Shown here one piece after another: positions 25,753 to 39,677 of a stretch of DNA of 43,499 nucleotides. The notes under the pieces are model-generated. The model did no database searches. It saw only the letters and a list, made by a program, of their open reading frames with translations, and was not told the DNA's origin. Positions within the stretch are counted from its first letter, which is position 1. Each line of letters opens with the position of its first letter. Made by a program: the position numbers and the translations under genes. Origin of the DNA: a virus; IMG/VR virus record IMGVR_UViG_3300022689_000011, positions 1 through 43,499 of that record, one strand, 5' to 3'.

Positions 25753-26652
25753 TTAGTCCCGCTCTTGTTCGTCGCGCTGTGCTTGCGCGATCACGCTGCG
25801 CAACACGGCCTTGTCTGCGCTCAACAGGTCTTCGCGCACCTGCCACAAGTCTTCGTCCTTGTAGTCGTCGATTGTGTCTTGAATGAGCCGACGCATTACG
25901 CGCGGTTCCAGCGCGTCGAGTTCCCAACTTTCGTAGCCGTGTTCGGCCACGTATTCTGGTGCCCGGCTGTCGGTAAGCTTGGCGGGGTTGGGCGGCGGGC
26001 TGTACTGCAACACTTGATCCATGTTCAAAGCGATACGGCGTACCTCTACGTCACCTTCTGCGAACATGCACAGGCGCTTTTCGTTGTCGCGCGTCATGTC
26101 AATGCCGGACGGGTCATGGTCGCCAAGATGGATTACGACCGTATGGTAGCCGCGTAGGTGATAATCGGCCATGCGCTTGCCTGCGGCGTAAAGTTCGGAC
26201 TGCGATACGTAGCCCCGACACGCGAAGTAATCGACGTCGTTTTCGCTGCACACGCGGTCGATAACGCCAAGCAAGGCGTCTTTCTCAATCCACACTTCTA
26301 CGCGGGTTTCTTGGTTTTCCCACATATCAATGCTGTACCGCGACGCCAGACCGCGAAGTGCGTTGGACGGGCTGTACGAATTGCGACGGCCACGCAAGAA
26401 CCGCGTACGGTCTTCGATTGCGTCCCAATCCACCATGCCGCCTAGCCGGGCCTTCGATATGGTGTCGCCCAACGCGTCGTAGTTGCGTTGTTTGTTTTCC
26501 ATAAGGCCACGGGCGACAAACTGGTAGTAGAGTTGCCGAAGTGTGAGGGTCAGGCCGTCCGCTTGGTATTCCGCGATAATCGCGTTGGCTTGGTCGATAC
26601 GCTTGAGCGACACAGGCCGGAACGGCTGCGGTTCGAAACATTCATAGGGCAT
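25753..26652 (-). CDS. Topoisomerase VI A / Spo11-like protein (Topo mini-A type)
   Basis: A 299-aa protein with the two-part core of type IIB topoisomerase A subunits. The 5Y-CAP-like winged helix holds TLRQLYYQFVARGL: Arg39 and the adjacent Tyr42/Tyr43, candidates for the nucleophile. The Toprim domain has Glu123 (WIEKDAL) and the DxD-type GDHDPSGID (Asp178, Asp180, Asp185). It is much shorter than Topo VI A (about 360-390 aa), and no B subunit or GHKL ATPase is seen in the genome, as described for Topo mini-A proteins of mobile elements. It may nick or relax DNA, or act as a nuclease. Own promoter at 26683-26711. Confidence 0.8.
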   Translation of the reverse strand: MPYECFEPQPFRPVSLKRIDQANAIIAEYQADGLTLTLRQLYYQFVARGLMENKQRNYDALGDTISKARLGGMVDWDAIEDRTRFLRGRRNSYSPSNALRGLASRYSIDMWENQETRVEVWIEKDALLGVIDRVCSENDVDYFACRGYVSQSELYAAGKRMADYHLRGYHTVVIHLGDHDPSGIDMTRDNEKRLCMFAEGDVEVRRIALNMDQVLQYSPPPNPAKLTDSRAPEYVAEHGYESWELDALEPRVMRRLIQDTIDDYKDEDLWQVREDLLSADKAVLRSVIAQAQRDEQERD

Positions 26653-26682: not shown

Positions 26683-26711
26683 GGTATACCTAATCGGGCA
26701 AGTCCTGTCAA
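26683..26711 (-). promoter_or_regulatory. Sigma70-like promoter for the mini-A operon
   Basis: Minus strand TTGACA (26711-26706), 17-nt spacer, TATACC (26688-26683), about 30 bases before the start at 26652. It overlaps the end of the OmpR-type gene. Confidence 0.65.
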
Positions 26712-27337
26712 GACCTACTTTTGCCGCTTCCTTCGGGGGCGTCTTCGTAGCCGTCTTCGCCTTCGCGGATTAGCTGGTAGCCCATGCCCTGTATCGTGGC
26801 GATACGTACACCCTTAAGCTTCGGGCGCACATGCGACAAATGAACGTCAAGTACCTTTGTGGCGGGCATTTCGTCGGTGCTGCGGTCGTCGTAGAGCCGC
26901 CGCATAAGCCCTTCCTTGCTCAACGTGCGATTGGGCGCACGATCAAGGGCAAGTACGAACTTGGCTTCGATCATGGTTAGGCCGTGCCTGCGCATGGTCA
27001 ACAGAAGCCCCGCAGCGTCCGACGCTGTGACGTACTCTAGTTTCTCAACCGCGTCGGCTTCTTCGTCAACTTCTGCGACGCTATGGTAGCGGTCGCCGTC
27101 TACCTCAATCAAGCTGTCGAGTAGCAGGCGTAGGCATTGCTTGGCAGATCGGGCAGGCCAGCCCCTACGCTTTTCGAATACCTCAATTGGCATTTCGTCT
27201 ACGATCAATTCCCGCAGCACACGAAAGAGCGACGGGGAAAGCTTGAAGTCGTACGGGCGACGACTGAATTTGTACGCCGCCAATACTTGTTGATCGGTTA
27301 GAGAACCGCGTTTCTTAAGTGCGTACACTACCTGCAC
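26708..27337 (-). CDS. Transcription factor with OmpR/PhoB-type winged helix, no receiver domain
   Basis: A 209-aa protein. The C-terminal half (about 112-195) reads as an OmpR/PhoB effector domain: LTMIEAKFVLALDRAPNRTLSKEGLM, then the recognition-helix region ATKVLDVHLSHVRPKL and the closing strand IATIQGMGYQLI. The N-terminal half looks like a second winged helix (SLFRVLRELIVDEMPIEVFEKR...AKQCLRLLLDSLIEV) in place of a phospho-receiver. The start is GTG 27335-27337. It is a likely regulator of phage or host genes; the cell-cycle regulator CtrA of alphaproteobacteria has a similar effector domain. Targets unknown. Confidence 0.78.
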   Translation of the reverse strand: MQVVYALKKRGSLTDQQVLAAYKFSRRPYDFKLSPSLFRVLRELIVDEMPIEVFEKRRGWPARSAKQCLRLLLDSLIEVDGDRYHSVAEVDEEADAVEKLEYVTASDAAGLLLTMRRHGLTMIEAKFVLALDRAPNRTLSKEGLMRRLYDDRSTDEMPATKVLDVHLSHVRPKLKGVRIATIQGMGYQLIREGEDGYEDAPEGSGKSRS

Positions 27338-30080: not shown

Positions 30081-30260
30081 CTAAAGTGGGTTTATGTCTT
30101 GTTCGTCTAGTTCATATGTAGACGGCCTACCATCGCACCACCACAGGACAAGATATATTGCGTGGGTCATATTCCGCGCTAAGATAATTCGATCTATCAT
30201 AGCGGGTATGTCCCCGGCAATTATTACGTGCTGGCCTAGTTCATATTTTGGTTTTATCAT
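30081..30260 (-). CDS. Small protein, 59 aa, coupled to PrimPol gene
   Basis: MIKPKYELGQHVIIAGDIPAM..., start 30258-30260, stop TAG 30081-30083. Its ATG overlaps the PrimPol TGA (ATGA). The pattern YxLGxxVxIxGDIPAxI...YxVxWWCDG..STYELDEQDI looks like a compact beta-barrel seen as a small protein in many phages. It is short enough to be missed by usual length cut-offs. Confidence 0.72.
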   Translation of the reverse strand: MIKPKYELGQHVIIAGDIPAMIDRIILARNMTHAIYLVLWWCDGRPSTYELDEQDINPL

Positions 30261-32701
30261 TTCTCTATAAACCTTGTTGGGTTCGACACGACGAACGCAC
30301 GGCCCGACTTGTTGTAGCGTGCGGCTAGATCGGCCTTGCCCATTTCGATTATGTCGCCGTCGTCGATAAGCGATTGCATGGTGCGCTTAATGGCGTTGGT
30401 CGCGCCTAGACGATCATTGCGGAACGCGGCTAGGCTGGTAAGGCGGCGCTGCACGTATGCCAGCGACACAACATGGTCGCGGTGCATGGGGCGTTCGATC
30501 TTGTACTTGGCAAGGTCTTCGTAGGGCAATTGCAGGTATTGCAGCGTGACCCGGATAAAGTCGGATACTTGGCGGGTTTCTTCGCTTGTGCGCCCGACGT
30601 TGCCGCTATCGAATTTCTGCATAACGCCTTCGATATCTCGACGTACGATATTGAACGCCCATTCGCCTATGTCGCGGGTTATGCGCGGGTTGTCGGGGTC
30701 AACGCCTACGGCCACTAGGGCGGCAAGCTTGAGCGTCTTAAGGTGCGCCCGGTTCCACAGTTGCCGCCCGGCTTCGCGTTGGTCGGCCATGTTTATTTGC
30801 GCGTCTGCGTAAGTGTCAACGTATTGCTTGTTGCCTAGAAACTCAAACGCGGCTTGGTCTGCGTACTCGACGTTGCGCGTAATGTTGTGCGAGTTCATGG
30901 ACGAAGCGTTGTGGCATAGTGCGGCGAAACGCTGCATAAGTTCGACGCTAGGCCGTACGGTCGAATGGTCGTCGTTCATTTCGGGGCGACGCCCGTTGTA
31001 TTCGATCACAAGCAAGCGCGGCAAGAGGCCGTCCGCGATAAGCCCTTCGTCAAGGTTCGCGTAGTAGCTTTCGGGCGTGCTTTCGCCTAGCAGGGTAAAC
31101 GCAGGGCTTTGCACTTCTTCGGTGTTCTTCGTCGTGTCGCTGTACGCGGTCGGGCGCAATACGTCGCCTTGGCCGCTCTTGCCGAATAGATCAAGCAACA
31201 CCTTCTTAAGCATGATTTCCGACGACGACGCGCGGGGATGCGCTAGGCGCTGCATTGCAAGCCCGAATTCGCCTACGATAGACACGAAGCTACGCGACTT
31301 GGCAAAGCACTTTAGCAGGGCTTGCCCGCTTGAGATTTCCGCAGGCCCGATATACTCCGAAAGGTTCGGCAGTACGTTCGGCATGTTGCCTTCGTGCCAA
31401 TCGCCGGATTGGGCGAACGTCATAAACTTGTTGATACCCGACGCCATAGCTTCTTTGCCTGTACCTGTCGGGGCCAGTAACAACACGTATTGGTTAAGTC
31501 CGGTGTTGGACACGTTGTAAGCGCGACCGCAGATACCGGCCAACAATCCGATTGCCCCGGCTAGGGCGATTTCAGGCACCGGGCGCGGGGCGCTGCGGTA
31601 GATATAGTCGGCAATCTCGCCTAGCAGGCCGGGCGGCATGGGTATAGCGGTCGTGTCGGGGCGCTTGACCGGGGGCGTATGCTTGGGCTGCGGTTGGGCG
31701 TACTGCACGGGCTGGTAGAGGCCCGGCGCAGTCACACTAGCAGGCAAGAAAGCCAAGTTGCCTTCGGGGGTATGCGGGGCTTCTGCGGCCCGCTTAAGCG
31801 CTTCCTCTAGTTCGTTGTTGAACCCGTCAAGGTCAATTGGCGGCAACATGCGGTCGAACGCGCGGTTAATCGTGTAGTTGAGATACCCGGTACGCTTGGC
31901 CTTGTCGCGGACACCTAAGCCCGATCTGCGGAATAGCCGCATGATCTGCGTACGGTTTTGCGTGTAGAAGGCTAGGAAGTTCATAAGGGCTTGGTCGGCT
32001 TCGGACTGCGACGGGTAATCGTTCTGCCATTCGCCCCGCAACAGCTTATCGAACTTGTCGCGGTTTTCCGCGCTCAAGCCCTTCGCAATAACTTCGTCGT
32101 CGCTGTACTTTTCGGTTAGGTCGCCGCCGTACACTTCGACGTTTGCGCCCCCGCCTAGTTCTTGGTACAGGGTTTCGACAAGGGCTTGTTGCTCAACGAT
32201 AGGCGCGTTGCGGTATACGTTGCCGGTCATGGTGAAAAACCGGCCTTCGCTGTATTGCTCAATAGCGTCGCGCTTACGCCCGCCCGGCGCTTTGCCCCGG
32301 CAAATCAGGTGCAGCCCGCGACCGCTAGGCGAGAATTCCGCGTAGGTTCCGAACTTGTCAAAGATGCGGCGTTGCACTTCGGCAATGCGCTGCGGGTCTT
32401 TGCGTACGTACGATCCATCCGGGTACGTTTCGTACGGGTCGTCAAGGTCGATACCTGTAAAGGGGTCGTTTTCGGTAAACACGAAGCCCGCGCCGTCCCA
32501 AAACCCCGATTTGAGCGCTTGCACGATAGTGTCGAACGTGGCCCATGTCTGCGGATTGGTCACGCTTGCGTGCTGGCCCGTATGGGGGCTGTAGGGAACC
32601 TTCGTAGGCTTCGGACTGTCTTTGTCTTCGTACCGCCACACGACCCATTGTGGGTAAGCTTTAAGGTCGTCGGGTACGCTATGTAGCGTATCAAATGTCA
32701 A
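30257..32701 (-). CDS. Primase-polymerase fused to DUF3987-type helicase
   Basis: An 814-aa replication protein. The N-terminal AEP/PrimPol domain has Asp85-x-Asp87 (TGIDLDDPY), SPSGRGLHL (125-132) with the His of motif II, and EQYSEGRFFTMTG (148-160). The middle (about 340-360) is a Pro-rich linker. The C-terminal superfamily helicase of DUF3987 kind has Walker A APTGTGKE near 413 and VGEFGLAMQ as a Walker B-like Glu. Such fusions prime and unwind. The start is a TTG (32699-32701) preceded by GGGGAAAAG, overlapping the HTH gene by 11 bases. It is encoded opposite to the polymerase operon. Confidence 0.88.
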   Translation of the reverse strand: MTFDTLHSVPDDLKAYPQWVVWRYEDKDSPKPTKVPYSPHTGQHASVTNPQTWATFDTIVQALKSGFWDGAGFVFTENDPFTGIDLDDPYETYPDGSYVRKDPQRIAEVQRRIFDKFGTYAEFSPSGRGLHLICRGKAPGGRKRDAIEQYSEGRFFTMTGNVYRNAPIVEQQALVETLYQELGGGANVEVYGGDLTEKYSDDEVIAKGLSAENRDKFDKLLRGEWQNDYPSQSEADQALMNFLAFYTQNRTQIMRLFRRSGLGVRDKAKRTGYLNYTINRAFDRMLPPIDLDGFNNELEEALKRAAEAPHTPEGNLAFLPASVTAPGLYQPVQYAQPQPKHTPPVKRPDTTAIPMPPGLLGEIADYIYRSAPRPVPEIALAGAIGLLAGICGRAYNVSNTGLNQYVLLLAPTGTGKEAMASGINKFMTFAQSGDWHEGNMPNVLPNLSEYIGPAEISSGQALLKCFAKSRSFVSIVGEFGLAMQRLAHPRASSSEIMLKKVLLDLFGKSGQGDVLRPTAYSDTTKNTEEVQSPAFTLLGESTPESYYANLDEGLIADGLLPRLLVIEYNGRRPEMNDDHSTVRPSVELMQRFAALCHNASSMNSHNITRNVEYADQAAFEFLGNKQYVDTYADAQINMADQREAGRQLWNRAHLKTLKLAALVAVGVDPDNPRITRDIGEWAFNIVRRDIEGVMQKFDSGNVGRTSEETRQVSDFIRVTLQYLQLPYEDLAKYKIERPMHRDHVVSLAYVQRRLTSLAAFRNDRLGATNAIKRTMQSLIDDGDIIEMGKADLAARYNKSGRAFVVSNPTRFIEK

Positions 32702-34212: not shown

Positions 34213-34923
34213 ATGCAAATGTCGCAACTACGGCCCGCATACGCGATCGCACAACAATACGGCGTCAAGTCGCTGGCCTATGGCGGGCCGGGGTCGGGCA
34301 AGACGCCGTTGATTAAGACCGCGCCCCGCCCCGTAGTGTGCGCCTGCGAACCGGGTATGCTTTCCCTGCGCGATTGGGACGGCCCCGTGTGGGAAGCGTT
34401 CACGCCTGCGGCAATCGACGAATTCTTTGCATGGGTTTTCGGGTCCAACGAAGTGCATAACTTCGATACTATTTGTATCGACAGTGTGTCGCAAATGGCC
34501 GAAACGTACTTGGGCAAAGCACTTGTCACGCACAAGCACGGCCTCAAGGCTTACGGCGAAATGTCCGACAAGGTTATGCGGCACCTTGGCATGTCTGACA
34601 ACGGACAGGGCCAGCCGTGCGGCTTGTACTACCTGCAACAGAAGCACGTATACCTTGTCGCAAAGCAAATGCTATCGCAGGAAGGGGGCGGCATTACAAA
34701 GAAGCGCCCATACTTTCCCGGCAACGAACTTAACGTAAAGGTGCCACACCTTTACGACGAAATCTTGCATATCGGGGTAATGCAAATCCCCGGTGTTGCA
34801 GGGCAACAGCGTGCTATTCGTACGCTGGAAACGCTGGAAGTTACCGCCCGTGATCGGTCGGGGCGTCTGGCAGAGTGTGAGCCGTGCGACTTGGGCGCAT
34901 TGTTCGCAAAGTGCATGTCCTAA
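34213..34923 (+). CDS. Sak4-like RecA-fold ATPase (single-strand annealing)
   Basis: A 236-aa protein. Walker A GGPGSGKT (24-31), Walker B FDTICIDSVS with Asp90, and the core follows the phage nucleotide-binding AAA_24/Sak4 family. Sak4 proteins bind ssDNA and promote annealing, usually together with an SSB encoded next to them, as here. It lacks a RecA C-terminal domain. Lies between the small early genes and the DUF669 gene. Confidence 0.85.
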   Translation: MQMSQLRPAYAIAQQYGVKSLAYGGPGSGKTPLIKTAPRPVVCACEPGMLSLRDWDGPVWEAFTPAAIDEFFAWVFGSNEVHNFDTICIDSVSQMAETYLGKALVTHKHGLKAYGEMSDKVMRHLGMSDNGQGQPCGLYYLQQKHVYLVAKQMLSQEGGGITKKRPYFPGNELNVKVPHLYDEILHIGVMQIPGVAGQQRAIRTLETLEVTARDRSGRLAECEPCDLGALFAKCMS

Positions 34924-34939
34924 CAGAAAGGCGAATGAC

Positions 34940-35737
34940 ATGGTACAATTCAACTTTGACGCGACGCAGGTTGCGCCGTCTACGGGCTACGAACCGTTGC
35001 CCGAAGGCTGGTACAACGTCGCAATCTCCGAAAGCGAAATCAAGCCGACCAAGGACAAGGAAGGCGCGTACTTGCAGCTTACGGCGAAGGTGCTGGACGG
35101 GCCGCAAATGGGCAAGGTCGTGTTTATCCGGCTCAACGTCCAGAACAAGAACCAACAGGCTGTGGATATCGCGTACGGCGAACTTTCCGCAATCTGTCAC
35201 GTCACGGGCGTGTATCATGTGCAGGAAAGCACGCAGCTTCACAATATCCCCTTCCAACTGCGTGTGATCGTCAAGCCCGGCGACAACGGCCCTATGAACG
35301 AAGTCAAGGGCTACAAGGACGCCCAAGGCAACGATCCGGGCAAGGCCGGTGGCGGCGCGACGCAGGGCCAGCCGCAGAACTTCGGCGCGGGCCAGCCCGC
35401 AGGCAACGGAATGCAGGGCCAGCCGCCGCAGGGGGCACAACAGCCCGCAGGCGGTTGGGGGCAGGGCCAGCCCCCGGAACAGGGCCAGCAACCGGCACAG
35501 CCGCCCGCAGGGCAGGGGCAATGGGGCCAGCCGCCCCAAGGCCAGCAACAGCCCCCGCAAGGGCAGGGTCAGGGCGTCCAGCCGGGCCAGCAACCGGCCT
35601 TCGGGGGCGGTGCGCCCGCTCAACAGGCCGCGCCCCCGCAGGGCCAGCCGCAAGGGCAGGGCGGGTGGACACAGCCCGCACAGGGCCAGCCCGCGCAAGG
35701 CGGGGCACCTTGGGGGCAGACGCAGCCCGCACAGTGA
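34940..35737 (+). CDS. DUF669-type ssDNA-binding protein with long Q/P/G-rich tail
   Basis: 265 aa, ATG 34940-34942. Residues 1 to about 130 match the DUF669 family (QFNFDATQVAPSTGYEPLPEGWYNV...IKPTKDKEGAYLQLTAKVLDG...NIPFQLRVIVKPGDN), an OB-like ssDNA-binding fold. Residues 131-265 consist almost only of Gly, Gln, Pro and Ala, with many GQ, PPQG and QQP units and Trp at intervals, ending WGQTQPAQ. It is the partner of the Sak4-like protein. The tail is far longer than the usual acidic-tip linker of SSBs. A strong terminator follows. Confidence 0.85.
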   Translation: MVQFNFDATQVAPSTGYEPLPEGWYNVAISESEIKPTKDKEGAYLQLTAKVLDGPQMGKVVFIRLNVQNKNQQAVDIAYGELSAICHVTGVYHVQESTQLHNIPFQLRVIVKPGDNGPMNEVKGYKDAQGNDPGKAGGGATQGQPQNFGAGQPAGNGMQGQPPQGAQQPAGGWGQGQPPEQGQQPAQPPAGQGQWGQPPQGQQQPPQGQGQGVQPGQQPAFGGGAPAQQAAPPQGQPQGQGGWTQPAQGQPAQGGAPWGQTQPAQ

Positions 35738-35754
35738 CGGACCCTACGCGACGT

Positions 35755-35783
35755 ATACGGGGGCCGCGTGCCCCCGTATTTTC
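35755..35783 (+). terminator. Intrinsic terminator inside the replication operon
   Basis: ATACGGGGGC (35755-35764) pairs with GCCCCCGTAT (35770-35779), 10 bp with a 5-nt loop, followed by TTTCT. It is placed after the SSB gene and should raise its expression over the nuclease, helicase and polymerase genes that follow by read-through. Confidence 0.8.
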
Positions 35784-35797
35784 TAGCGGGGTCTTTC

Positions 35798-35935
35798 ATG
35801 GAACACTTGCGAAACATTCTCACGTCGCACCAACTAGAGAAACTTAAGAAGAAAGCCCGACAACATGGACAAGCTACCAATCGACACAGACGTACCCGTG
35901 CCAAGCGACGCACGTACAAGCGCAAAAGAAGGTAG
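35798..35935 (+). CDS. Possible tiny basic protein, 45 aa, overlapping the nuclease start
   Basis: MEHLRNILTSHQLEKLKKKARQ..., stop 35933-35935. It starts just after the terminator with GCGGGG 8-9 bases upstream, and about 40% of the residues are Lys or Arg. The last 71 bases overlap the nuclease gene in another frame. It could be a real nucleic-acid-binding peptide or leader, or chance; coding potential cannot be settled by eye. Confidence 0.35.
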   Translation: MEHLRNILTSHQLEKLKKKARQHGQATNRHRRTRAKRRTYKRKRR

Positions 35936-36818
35936 CGGCGACGCGTTGTCCGCCCCCGGTGCAAGGGCGCAGCTTGCCCGCCGTATCAAAGAGGATATCG
36001 ACGAATTTTGCCGAACCACTTACGACGGCGGGCACCGACGCCACTTGGGCGCGTCACAAATCGGGCACGAATGTTCCCGCTATCTTTGGTACGTTTTCCG
36101 TTGGGTTCAAGCCCCGACGTTTGACGGACGTATGCAAAGGCTTTTCAATCGCGGGCACCGCGAAGAAGCACGCTTTATCGAATGGCTTGAGGGTATCGGC
36201 GCACAGGTCGTCGAGTTCCAACCGGACGCAGACGGAAACGCCAACAAGGGCGAACAACAATACCGCGTCAAGGGTGTACTTGGTCACTTCGGCGGGTCGC
36301 TTGACGGCCAAATAAAGTTGCCGGAACGCTACGGCGTAGACTTCGGCATGTTGTCGGAATTCAAGACCAAGGGCACGGGGGCGGGGTTCACAAAGCTATG
36401 TGAAAAGGGCGTAAGGATCGTCGCCCCGCAGCACTTCGACCAAATGTGCGTATACGGTCGCGCGTATGGGTACAAGTACGCGCTCTATATGGCTATCAAC
36501 AAGAATGACGATAGCTTGCACGTCGAGATTGTCGAACTTGATTGGAAGCGCGGCGAACAACTTGAGCGCAAAGCCGCCGACGTCATTACGTCGCAGGTTC
36601 CCCCGGCAAAGCTTTCGCAAAGTCCGGCGTTTCAGGCGTGCAAATGGTGCGACTTTTCGGACATATGCCACAACGAAAAGGCGGTAGAAAAGAACTGCCG
36701 TAGCTGCGTATCGGCGTCACCAACCGAAGACGGGCAGTGGTTTTGCGCGACGTATCAGGGCGTAATCCCTGCCGAATTCATCCCGCAAGGATGCGATAGC
36801 TATAGCCCGATTGCATAA
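35865..36818 (+). CDS. PD-(D/E)xK nuclease, Cas4/RecB-like with Fe-S cysteines
   Basis: A 317-aa protein. GASQIGHECSRYLWY (62-76) holds the N-terminal Cys70. Active site: Asp147 (GSLDGQI), Glu165 and Lys167 (SEFKTKG). C-terminal Cys259, Cys262 and Cys268 (CKWCDFSDIC) complete the one-plus-three cysteine pattern that binds 4Fe-4S in Cas4 and AddB. A further four-Cys tail follows (278, 281, 294, 310). Likely a 5'-3' resecting exonuclease supplying ssDNA to the Sak4/SSB pair. The stop overlaps the helicase start (TAATG). Confidence 0.87.
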   Translation: MDKLPIDTDVPVPSDARTSAKEGSGDALSAPGARAQLARRIKEDIDEFCRTTYDGGHRRHLGASQIGHECSRYLWYVFRWVQAPTFDGRMQRLFNRGHREEARFIEWLEGIGAQVVEFQPDADGNANKGEQQYRVKGVLGHFGGSLDGQIKLPERYGVDFGMLSEFKTKGTGAGFTKLCEKGVRIVAPQHFDQMCVYGRAYGYKYALYMAINKNDDSLHVEIVELDWKRGEQLERKAADVITSQVPPAKLSQSPAFQACKWCDFSDICHNEKAVEKNCRSCVSASPTEDGQWFCATYQGVIPAEFIPQGCDSYSPIA

Positions 36819-38443
36819 TGTTCGATCTGCGTTGGTATCAAGACGAAGCTATAGACAGTATCTTTCGGTACTTTGGAAACAATGCCGGAAACCCTGTTGT
36901 AGCTTTGCCCACAGGCACAGGCAAGTCGCTAGTGATCGGCGGTTTTCAACAACGCGCCTTGAGTATGTACCCGACGCAGCGTTTCATTAACCTAACTCAC
37001 GTCAGAGAGTTGGTCGAACAAAACGCCCGCAAAATGGTTTCAATGTGGCCGGGCGCACCTGTCGGCGTGAATAGCGCGGGCCTCAAGCAACGCGACGTAA
37101 TACAGGCAATCATATTTGCCGGTATCGCGTCTATCGCCAAGAACCCCCATGCGCTAGGGCACCGCGATCTAGCCATAATCGACGAATGCCACTTGGTAAG
37201 TCCCAACGGCGAAACCACGTACCGCAAAGTGATCGAAGCGCTACGGGAAATTAACCCGTATATGAAAGTCGTAGGCTTGACGGCCACGCCCTACCGCTTG
37301 GGGCAAGGCATGATTACAGACGGCGGGCTATTCACCGACGTATGCTACGATCTTACGGACATAAACGGGTTTGCCCGATTGCTTGCCGAAGGCTACCTAG
37401 CGCCCCTGTACCCGCGTCCGACGCGAACCGAATTGGACGTATCGAATGTGGGCATGTCCAACGGCGACTTCGCCAAGAACCAACTACAAGCCGCAGTCAA
37501 CGACAACCAAACGACGTACAAAGCGCTAGTTGAATTATGCGAAGCCGGTTGGGACCGCCGCGCTTGGCTTGTGTTCGCGTCTGGCGTCGAACATGCCGAC
37601 ATAATCGCGTCCATGCTCAACAGCTTTGGAATACCTACCGCAGCCGTACACCAAGGCACAAAGAACCGCGACGAAGTTATACGGGCGTACAAGCGTGGCG
37701 AACTTCGGTGCCTAGTCAACAACAACGTATTGACGACAGGCTTTGACTACCCGCCTATTGATCTAATCGGCATGTTGCGTCCGACAGTATCGCCCGGATT
37801 ATGGGTGCAGATGTTGGGCCGGGGCACGCGCCCTTGGTCGGGCGGCTATATCGACGTAGGCGACGGCACACAAGTGTATATGCCCGACCCGAAGCACGAT
37901 TGCCTTGTACTCGACTTCGCAGGCAATACGAAGCGGCTTGGACCGATCAACGACCCGCACATACCTAAAGCGCGGAAAGGGGCACCGGGCGACGCCCCTG
38001 TGCGTATCTGCGACACATGCGGAACGTACAACCACGCGTCCGCGACCGTGTGCATGTGCTGCGGGGCAGAGTTCCCGCGTAGCGAAAACATATCGTCGAA
38101 GCCTTCGGACGCCGAACTAATGCGAAGCGACGCGCCCGTTGTCGAATACTTCGACGTAACGAAGGTGATATACAGCAAACACGAAAGCCGAAAAGGTAAC
38201 ACAAGCCTAAAGGCGAGTTACTACATAGCGGGCGGAATACAGCGCTACAGCGAATGGGTACACTTTGAGATAGGCGGGCTACCCGGAAAGCGGGCGCGGG
38301 ATTGGTGGCGACAACGGCACGATAGCGAACCGCCGAACACGGTAGACGACGCGCTTATGTTCGTGTCAGAACTTCGCACGCCGCGCCGTATTCGCGTATG
38401 GACTAACAAGCAATATCCAGAGGTACTAAGCTATGAGTATTGA
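36818..38443 (+). CDS. DECH-box superfamily 2 helicase with zinc ribbon
   Basis: A 541-aa protein. Q-like RWYQDEAIDSI, Walker A PTGTGKS (31-37), DECH (122-125), TATPYR (about 154), and motif VI QMLGRGTRPW (about 329). At about 397-418 a four-Cys ribbon, CDTCG...CMCCG. The C-terminal domain (about 450-541) carries a WWRQRHDS..P motif seen in phage helicases of this type. Likely the replicative or repair DNA translocase of the operon. Overlaps the nuclease and the 74-aa gene at its ends. Confidence 0.88.
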   Translation: MFDLRWYQDEAIDSIFRYFGNNAGNPVVALPTGTGKSLVIGGFQQRALSMYPTQRFINLTHVRELVEQNARKMVSMWPGAPVGVNSAGLKQRDVIQAIIFAGIASIAKNPHALGHRDLAIIDECHLVSPNGETTYRKVIEALREINPYMKVVGLTATPYRLGQGMITDGGLFTDVCYDLTDINGFARLLAEGYLAPLYPRPTRTELDVSNVGMSNGDFAKNQLQAAVNDNQTTYKALVELCEAGWDRRAWLVFASGVEHADIIASMLNSFGIPTAAVHQGTKNRDEVIRAYKRGELRCLVNNNVLTTGFDYPPIDLIGMLRPTVSPGLWVQMLGRGTRPWSGGYIDVGDGTQVYMPDPKHDCLVLDFAGNTKRLGPINDPHIPKARKGAPGDAPVRICDTCGTYNHASATVCMCCGAEFPRSENISSKPSDAELMRSDAPVVEYFDVTKVIYSKHESRKGNTSLKASYYIAGGIQRYSEWVHFEIGGLPGKRARDWWRQRHDSEPPNTVDDALMFVSELRTPRRIRVWTNKQYPEVLSYEY

Positions 38444-38666: not shown

Positions 38667-39677
38667 ATGGCACCGCGCAAGCGCACAGCAAAAGAGAAAG
38701 AGCCGAAGCTATCCTTGGCCGTAGCGCTTGATTTTATCAAGGTCGCTCAGTCGGACAAGCTAGGCGACATTATCAACAAGTCGCACTGTCGCATAGCCCA
38801 AGGCTACGCCGTCGCGTCTGACAACGTGATTACCGCAGGCCACCCGGTAGAAGAAGACGTGAACGTGTGCCCACAGACGTTCCGGCTACTCGACGCGATC
38901 AAGCGGTGCAAAAAGGCTGTGTCGATTACGCAGCTTGACGCCGAACAACTGGTAATCAAGTCGGGCAATTTCCGGGCGGTTATCCCGTGCTTGAACCCCG
39001 CAGCGTTGCCGTACTCTACGCCCGATCTGCGGGCGGGTACGATTAGCGACGTTATCCGCGAAGGCTTCGAAATGCTCAACCCGCTTGTGTCAGGCACCGG
39101 GGCAACTACCGTCGAAGCAAGCTTGTTGCTCAACAACAATAGCATGATTGCAACCGACCGTACGGTTATGGTCGAATTCTGGCACGGCATTAACCTACCG
39201 GACGGCCTAGCCATACCAAAGCAAGCCGTAACGGCCCTGTGCAGGATCAAGCAACCGCTTGTGGGCATTGGCGTGTCCGACCGATCTGTGACATTCCATT
39301 ACGACAACGGGGCGTGGTTCAAAACGCAGCTTTACGCCGAACCTTGGCCCGACGTGTCGAGTATTATCAACGGCGGCGATCCGTACAACACGCCCGACGT
39401 TCCCCCGGCTTTCTTCGAAGCTGTAGAGGCCGTCGCAGGGCACAGCCGTGACGGGGCTATATACACCAAGGACGGCCACCTAGCGTCGCACCATAGCGAC
39501 GCCGCAGGGGCTACCTACGCGCTCAAGGGCGTGCCGCCCGGTCTGTGCTACGGGGCTAAGGGTCTTTTGTCTGTGAAGGCGATAGCTACCCGGTTCGACT
39601 TCGTAGGGAACGGGCGCGGGATATCGTATTTCTTTGGCGACAACACGCGCGGCGCAATTGTGCAAAGGTCCGGTTAA
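38667..39677 (+). CDS. Sliding-clamp-like protein (DNA polymerase beta-clamp fold, putative)
   Basis: A 336-aa protein directly before the DNA polymerase gene. The basic N-terminus (PRKRTAKEKEPK) is followed by a repeating strand-helix pattern reminiscent of beta clamps: NVCPQTFRLLDAIKRCKKAVSITQLDAEQLVIKSGNFRAVIPCL, and later IPKQAVTALCRIKQPLVGIGVSDRSVTFHYDN. Length (about 340-370 in bacterial DnaN) and position agree. If right, the phage brings its own processivity factor. The alternative is an unrelated polymerase accessory protein. Confidence 0.65.
   Translation: MAPRKRTAKEKEPKLSLAVALDFIKVAQSDKLGDIINKSHCRIAQGYAVASDNVITAGHPVEEDVNVCPQTFRLLDAIKRCKKAVSITQLDAEQLVIKSGNFRAVIPCLNPAALPYSTPDLRAGTISDVIREGFEMLNPLVSGTGATTVEASLLLNNNSMIATDRTVMVEFWHGINLPDGLAIPKQAVTALCRIKQPLVGIGVSDRSVTFHYDNGAWFKTQLYAEPWPDVSSIINGGDPYNTPDVPPAFFEAVEAVAGHSRDGAIYTKDGHLASHHSDAAGATYALKGVPPGLCYGAKGLLSVKAIATRFDFVGNGRGISYFFGDNTRGAIVQRSG

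Follow-up and report, generated by a model that had tools for sequence, protein, structure and literature searches.

A predicted Topo Mini-A, kin of Topo VI A and Spo11 without a B subunit, in a siphophage-like genome

Type IIB relatives and the identity of the gene

Reviews divide the type IIB topoisomerases into Topo VI, Topo VIII and Mini-A and trace the Mini-A family to Takahashi et al. 2020, NAR Genom Bioinform lqz021 (PMC8185306, PMC8084294, PMC7614492, PMC11302465). Topo VI is an A2B2 complex with a GHKL ATPase as its B subunit. In Top6A of M. mazei, the active site is formed by R102, Y106, E202, D254 and D256, and a clasp joins R102 to E342 (PMC13040014). Topo VIII is a type IIB kind found on mobile elements (PMC8185306) and contains a GHKL/transducer part, mostly fused in one protein (PMC8185306, PMC7614492). 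Spo11 is eukaryotic and has meiotic partners of the TOP6BL/Rec102 type. The Mini-A example given in one review is that of Pseudomonas phage NP1 (PMC7614492).

The window analysed here is the whole 43,499-nt stretch of a viral record (IMGVR_UViG_3300022689_000011), which is siphophage-like, with tail, tape-measure, head, portal, terminase and endolysin genes. A sequence-only reading had proposed a Topo mini-A gene at 25753-26652, and the ORF has exactly these coordinates (Table 1). Its strand, absent from that reading, is the minus strand, on which the frame is intact, starts with ATG and is preceded by AGAAGGA; the plus-strand reading is interrupted by stops. Residues 4-296 of the product align with the 'DNA topoisomerase' profile phrog_6247, while Pfam and NCBIfam gave no significant match. 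Relatives were retrieved by tblastn from 73 phage and 41 plasmid records, and pattern scans located at least 548 viral loci and at least 200 loci in cellular genomes, the latter with an alignment as query; a single-sequence query returned none. Considering the phrog_6247 match together with these phage records and viral and genomic loci, this is a real gene rather than a frame open by chance. A phylum name was available for 78 of the genome loci, which are distributed over 16 phyla, two of them archaeal.

The NP1 Mini-A is 47% identical to the window protein over residues 11-273, and a further relative (E 3e-19) was deposited as 'Topo Mini-A' on the 8.8-kb plasmid P-7H_11 of an uncultured archaeon. 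Homology to these two named proteins identifies the window protein as a Mini-A, in agreement with the name first given to it. It is of the same length class as the NP1 protein, has the same motifs and is likewise encoded on a mobile element, although the phage lineage differs. The sequence and structural traits by which the family is recognised were found: a winged helix with a tyrosine and a preceding arginine, a Toprim glutamate and DxD, truncation, no B subunit in the record and a mobile element as carrier. Judged by homology, it is thus an ordinary member of an already published family, the B-less kin of Topo VI A and Spo11. Our literature search found no report of DNA cleavage or topoisomerase activity for any Mini-A.

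A distant branch (25-30% identity), labelled 'hypothetical protein', is encoded on some 30 plasmids of Streptomyces, including several linear ones, and also on Kitasatospora and Rubrobacter plasmids (L318-L322, L327). Those members of the branch that were aligned retain Arg39, Tyr43, Glu123 and DxD. In another IMG/VR phage record (L002:7838-8915), the Mini-A match extends over two adjacent in-frame ORFs with just one stop codon between them; recoding of the stop, breakage of the gene or an error could each account for this. The match is also in two pieces, gp26 and gp27, in Roseobacter phage RDJL Phi 1 (HM151342.1 14469-15274), whereas it is in one piece in RDJL Phi 2.

Table 1. Coordinates of the Mini-A gene, its predicted functional regions and other genes of the window
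Feature	Coordinates	Strand	Details
Topo Mini-A gene	25753..26652	minus	299 aa; phrog_6247 E 3.7e-105; tblastn to NP1 Mini-A 2e-68; model pLDDT 93
SWELDAL, residues 242-248: Glu244 and Asp246, possible Top6A E342 counterpart	25909..25929	minus	both 170/170
Toprim region, ~residues 116-206	26035..26307	minus	model: strands and helices alternating; best PDB match Top6A
DHDPSG, residues 178-183: Asp178 and Asp180, predicted metal ligands	26104..26121	minus	170/170; Top6A D254/D256
Glu123, predicted metal ligand	26284..26286	minus	170/170; Top6A E202 by motif order
Winged-helix (5Y-CAP-like) region, ~residues 13-84	26401..26616	minus	model helices 13-30, 38-47, 55-70; weak PF04406
TLRQLYYQ, residues 37-44: Arg39 and predicted nucleophile Tyr43	26521..26544	minus	R39/Y43 170/170, Y42 166/170
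NrS-1-like primase	30257-32701	minus	814 aa
Sak4-like annealing protein	34213-34923	plus	
SSB (DUF669)	34793-35737	plus	
Cas4-domain exonuclease	35865-36818	plus	
Helicase	36818-38443	plus	
Processivity factor	38667-39677		
DNA polymerase A	39634-41691		

Fold and active site

An AlphaFold2 model built from 84 family members was confident (mean pLDDT 93.2, pTM 0.87) and consisted of a winged helix and a Toprim domain, the arrangement that had been set beforehand as the structural check on the sequence-only reading. Its top structural match among 350,542 PDB chains was M. mazei Top6A (9o7o_A; E 1.2e-3, probability 0.99, 304 columns). The TM-score to this chain was low (0.32), and a different inter-domain angle may be the reason. 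The BFVD viral structure library gave no informative match to the model, and sequence searches of the PDB gave no relevant one. The N-terminal Topo VI A profile PF04406 aligned at 26455-26580 with an E-value of 0.0024, under its cut-off. In hhalign comparisons, Mini-A scored 25.7 against 48 archaeal Topo VI A sequences (24.5 for the winged helix alone), compared with 12.9 (11.5) when the sequences were reversed and no more than 21.8 (17.8) with any of 47 other families from the neighbourhoods; a broader Mini-A profile narrowed the margin (19.8 vs 15.9). Kinship with Topo VI A at the level of sequence is therefore modest, and the link is carried mainly by the fold and the order of the motifs.

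This order is the same in both proteins: R39, Y43, E123, D178 and D180 of Mini-A follow one another as do R102, Y106, E202, D254 and D256 of Top6A, that is, a winged helix with R-x-x-Y-Y and then a Toprim glutamate and DxD. The spacings of +96, +148, +150 and +236 from the tyrosine are present in most of the archaeal Topo VI A sequences used. The motif and the residues singled out from the sequence were confirmed, the five residues being invariant in all 170 Mini-A sequences. The earlier proposal had left the catalytic tyrosine as Tyr42 or Tyr43. Y106 of Top6A is the second tyrosine in STLRELYY, and position 42 is phenylalanine in four of the 170 sequences; among more remote members, from plasmids and archaea, it varies between Y, F, W and A, with R39, Y43, E123 and DxD kept. 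The Top6A numbering (R102, Y106) and the substitutions at position 42 therefore make Tyr43 the predicted nucleophile and set Tyr42 aside. The segment SWELDAL, located after the Toprim region, resembles KAEQQAF around Top6A E342; an assignment of E244 as the counterpart of this clasp residue was not secure, as the Streptomyces plasmid members have QAEAL.

Absence of a B subunit and accessory status of the gene

As had been claimed, the window protein is shorter than Topo VI A, since the archaeal sequences are mostly of about 360-373 residues; compared with Top6A, some 60-70 residues are lacking. The claim that no ATPase B subunit is encoded also stood within the record, possibly incomplete, in which neither HATPase_c nor Topo-VIb transducer profiles found a match while positive controls did. 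The locus thus differs from Topo VI in the defining B subunit, and from Topo VIII, likewise a type IIB kind of mobile elements, in that the 299-residue protein contains no GHKL part and none is encoded in the record. Spo11 serves here as a mechanistic model only, and no partner of the TOP6BL/Rec102 type is seen in the phage. Mini-A might still pair with a protein of the host, for instance a GHKL subunit, beyond the reach of record-based searches.

No recurring neighbour of Mini-A was detected across about 150 loci. Among adjacent co-directional genes, no PHROG family occurred in more than two members downstream (97 loci) or in more than three upstream (84 loci), and blastp clustering of the neighbours revealed no common one. 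Mini-A lies outside any fixed operon, and gene linkage points to no encoded partner. The gene upstream of it in the window (26708-27337, minus strand) encodes an OmpR-type C-terminal DNA-binding domain (Trans_reg_C, 2.7e-9) and a DUF6456 match with no recognised receiver domain, which is unusual for a phage.

In a set of 38 phages related by their terminase, full-length Mini-A was present in four, and one more had a weak partial match. In the window and in three of the four related carriers, the gene is located between the primase and a DUF7303 gene, together with other genes that differ between phages; the related phages without Mini-A have other small genes there. Within this lineage the gene counts as accessory, although no variation was seen at its catalytic residues in the sequences examined. 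As most of the related phages lack it, it is not a core replication enzyme. No other topoisomerase that might replace it was recognised by eye in the ORF lists of five phages without Mini-A.

Elsewhere in the window, the Sak4-like protein, SSB, Cas4-domain exonuclease and helicase form a compact recombination/replication block (34213-38443, plus strand). The primase matches the helix bundle of NrS-1 polymerase (4.6e-11) and weakly DUF3987, and the phage also has a family A DNA polymerase. The phage had been described as of a lytic type. A search for tyrosine integrases found no match in the record, possibly a fragment; this part of the description stands only as far as that class of integrases is concerned.

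Possible roles in the phage

We consider it fairly probable that Mini-A, like its kin Topo VI A and Spo11 but with no B subunit, nicks or cuts phage DNA in replication or recombination, and the replication and recombination genes elsewhere in the phage favour this reading. Most likely, by analogy, it would be a homodimer that works without ATP and introduces nicks or cuts via 5'-phosphotyrosyl links, a predicted chemistry that it would share with Spo11. SPO11 dimers alone cut DNA in vitro through hybrid active sites and are also able to reseal nicks (PMC11922746, PMC11922745); a dimer of Mini-A would thus be expected to nick and cut DNA, and perhaps to relax it, with no need of ATP. Two copies would clamp a bent DNA duplex, and Tyr43 of each winged helix would attack the backbone beside a metal held by Glu123, Asp178 and Asp180 in the Toprim domain of the other copy. 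The outcome would be either a nick or a double-strand break with staggered ends, the protein being attached at the 5' ends, and resealing might follow. With no ATPase, there would be no ATP-gated strand passage; during replication or recombination, phage DNA would either be relaxed by swivelling at the nicks or receive breaks. The family, the fold, the invariant residues and the failure to find a B subunit or fixed partner come from the present analysis, and the dimer, the chemistry and the ATP-independence are taken over from Spo11 and Top6A. We infer the chemistry strongly and the biological role, replication or recombination, weakly.

A narrower version of the same explanation is a Spo11-like start of recombination, in which Mini-A would introduce programmed breaks into the phage DNA, the Cas4-like exonuclease would resect the ends and Sak4 would pair them, leading to recombination-dependent replication. 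The window phage has the genes for this (Sak4, SSB, the Cas4-domain exonuclease and a helicase), and in NP1 Mini-A is followed directly by Sak4, with a Cas4 exonuclease and a helicase nearby. However, Sak4, the one annealing protein counted, was clear in only nine of the 50 viral records with Mini-A (15 at E 0.001). Conversely, 29 of the 38 related phages have Sak4 and only four have Mini-A (five with the weak match), one related phage carries Mini-A without Sak4, and Mini-A has no fixed neighbour. The figures of 9/50 and of 29/38 against 4/38 led us to reject a coupling of Mini-A and Sak4 as a general rule, and the recombination starter itself appears unlikely to us.

Alternatively, Mini-A could be the cutting half of an enzyme whose ATPase half, for example GyrB or ParE, is supplied by the host, which would permit true strand passage. 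In favour of this, the record encodes no ATPase, yet conservation of the A-type active site is complete. Nevertheless, with hosts in 16 phyla the partner would need to be very widely conserved, and type IIA and IIB subunits are not known to mix; we regard a borrowed ATPase as improbable.

We give no more credence to Mini-A as a weapon, a JetD-like nuclease directed against plasmids, competing phages or host DNA, although the nuclease or anti-plasmid role had been suggested from the sequence. An accessory gene in a variable stretch is where weapons are often found, and JetD (Wadjet/MksG), GajA and Top6A have a Toprim nuclease core in common (PMC13040014). The suggestion was not borne out by any profile, neighbour or structural match: the window protein had no match in Pfam or PADLOC, JetD_C and Wadjet profiles matched none of the 84 members, no Jet partners, or recurring neighbours of any kind, were seen at Mini-A loci and no JetD chain was among the best 50 structural matches. 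Moreover, plasmids themselves carry Mini-A, and the nucleophilic tyrosine never varies, although a nuclease working by metal-dependent hydrolysis would have no need of it.

Similarly improbable is a replication starter, with Mini-A nicking an origin and Tyr43 on the 5' end, the job of a rolling-circle Rep done with a Spo11-type active site; in two small Mini-A plasmids, the 8.8-kb archaeal one and one of Paenibacillus durus, no replication initiator was recognised among the other proteins scanned, a scan confined to initiators in Pfam and to part of the small ORFs. The Paenibacillus durus plasmid, circular and of 15151 bp (NZ_CP009289.1, L325), carries Mini-A (53% identity) and, as filamentous phages do, a Zot-domain gene, which has no relative near Mini-A in other loci.

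Mini-A was described in 2020, and the reviews consulted give it no established role (PMC8185306, PMC7614492, PMC8084294, PMC11302465). Tyr43, rather than Tyr42, is now pinpointed as the residue to mutate, and the related phages without the gene provide a natural comparison for its role. If the favoured explanation, a B-less type IIB cutter acting on DNA in phages, is true, Mini-A would be a natural minimal Spo11.
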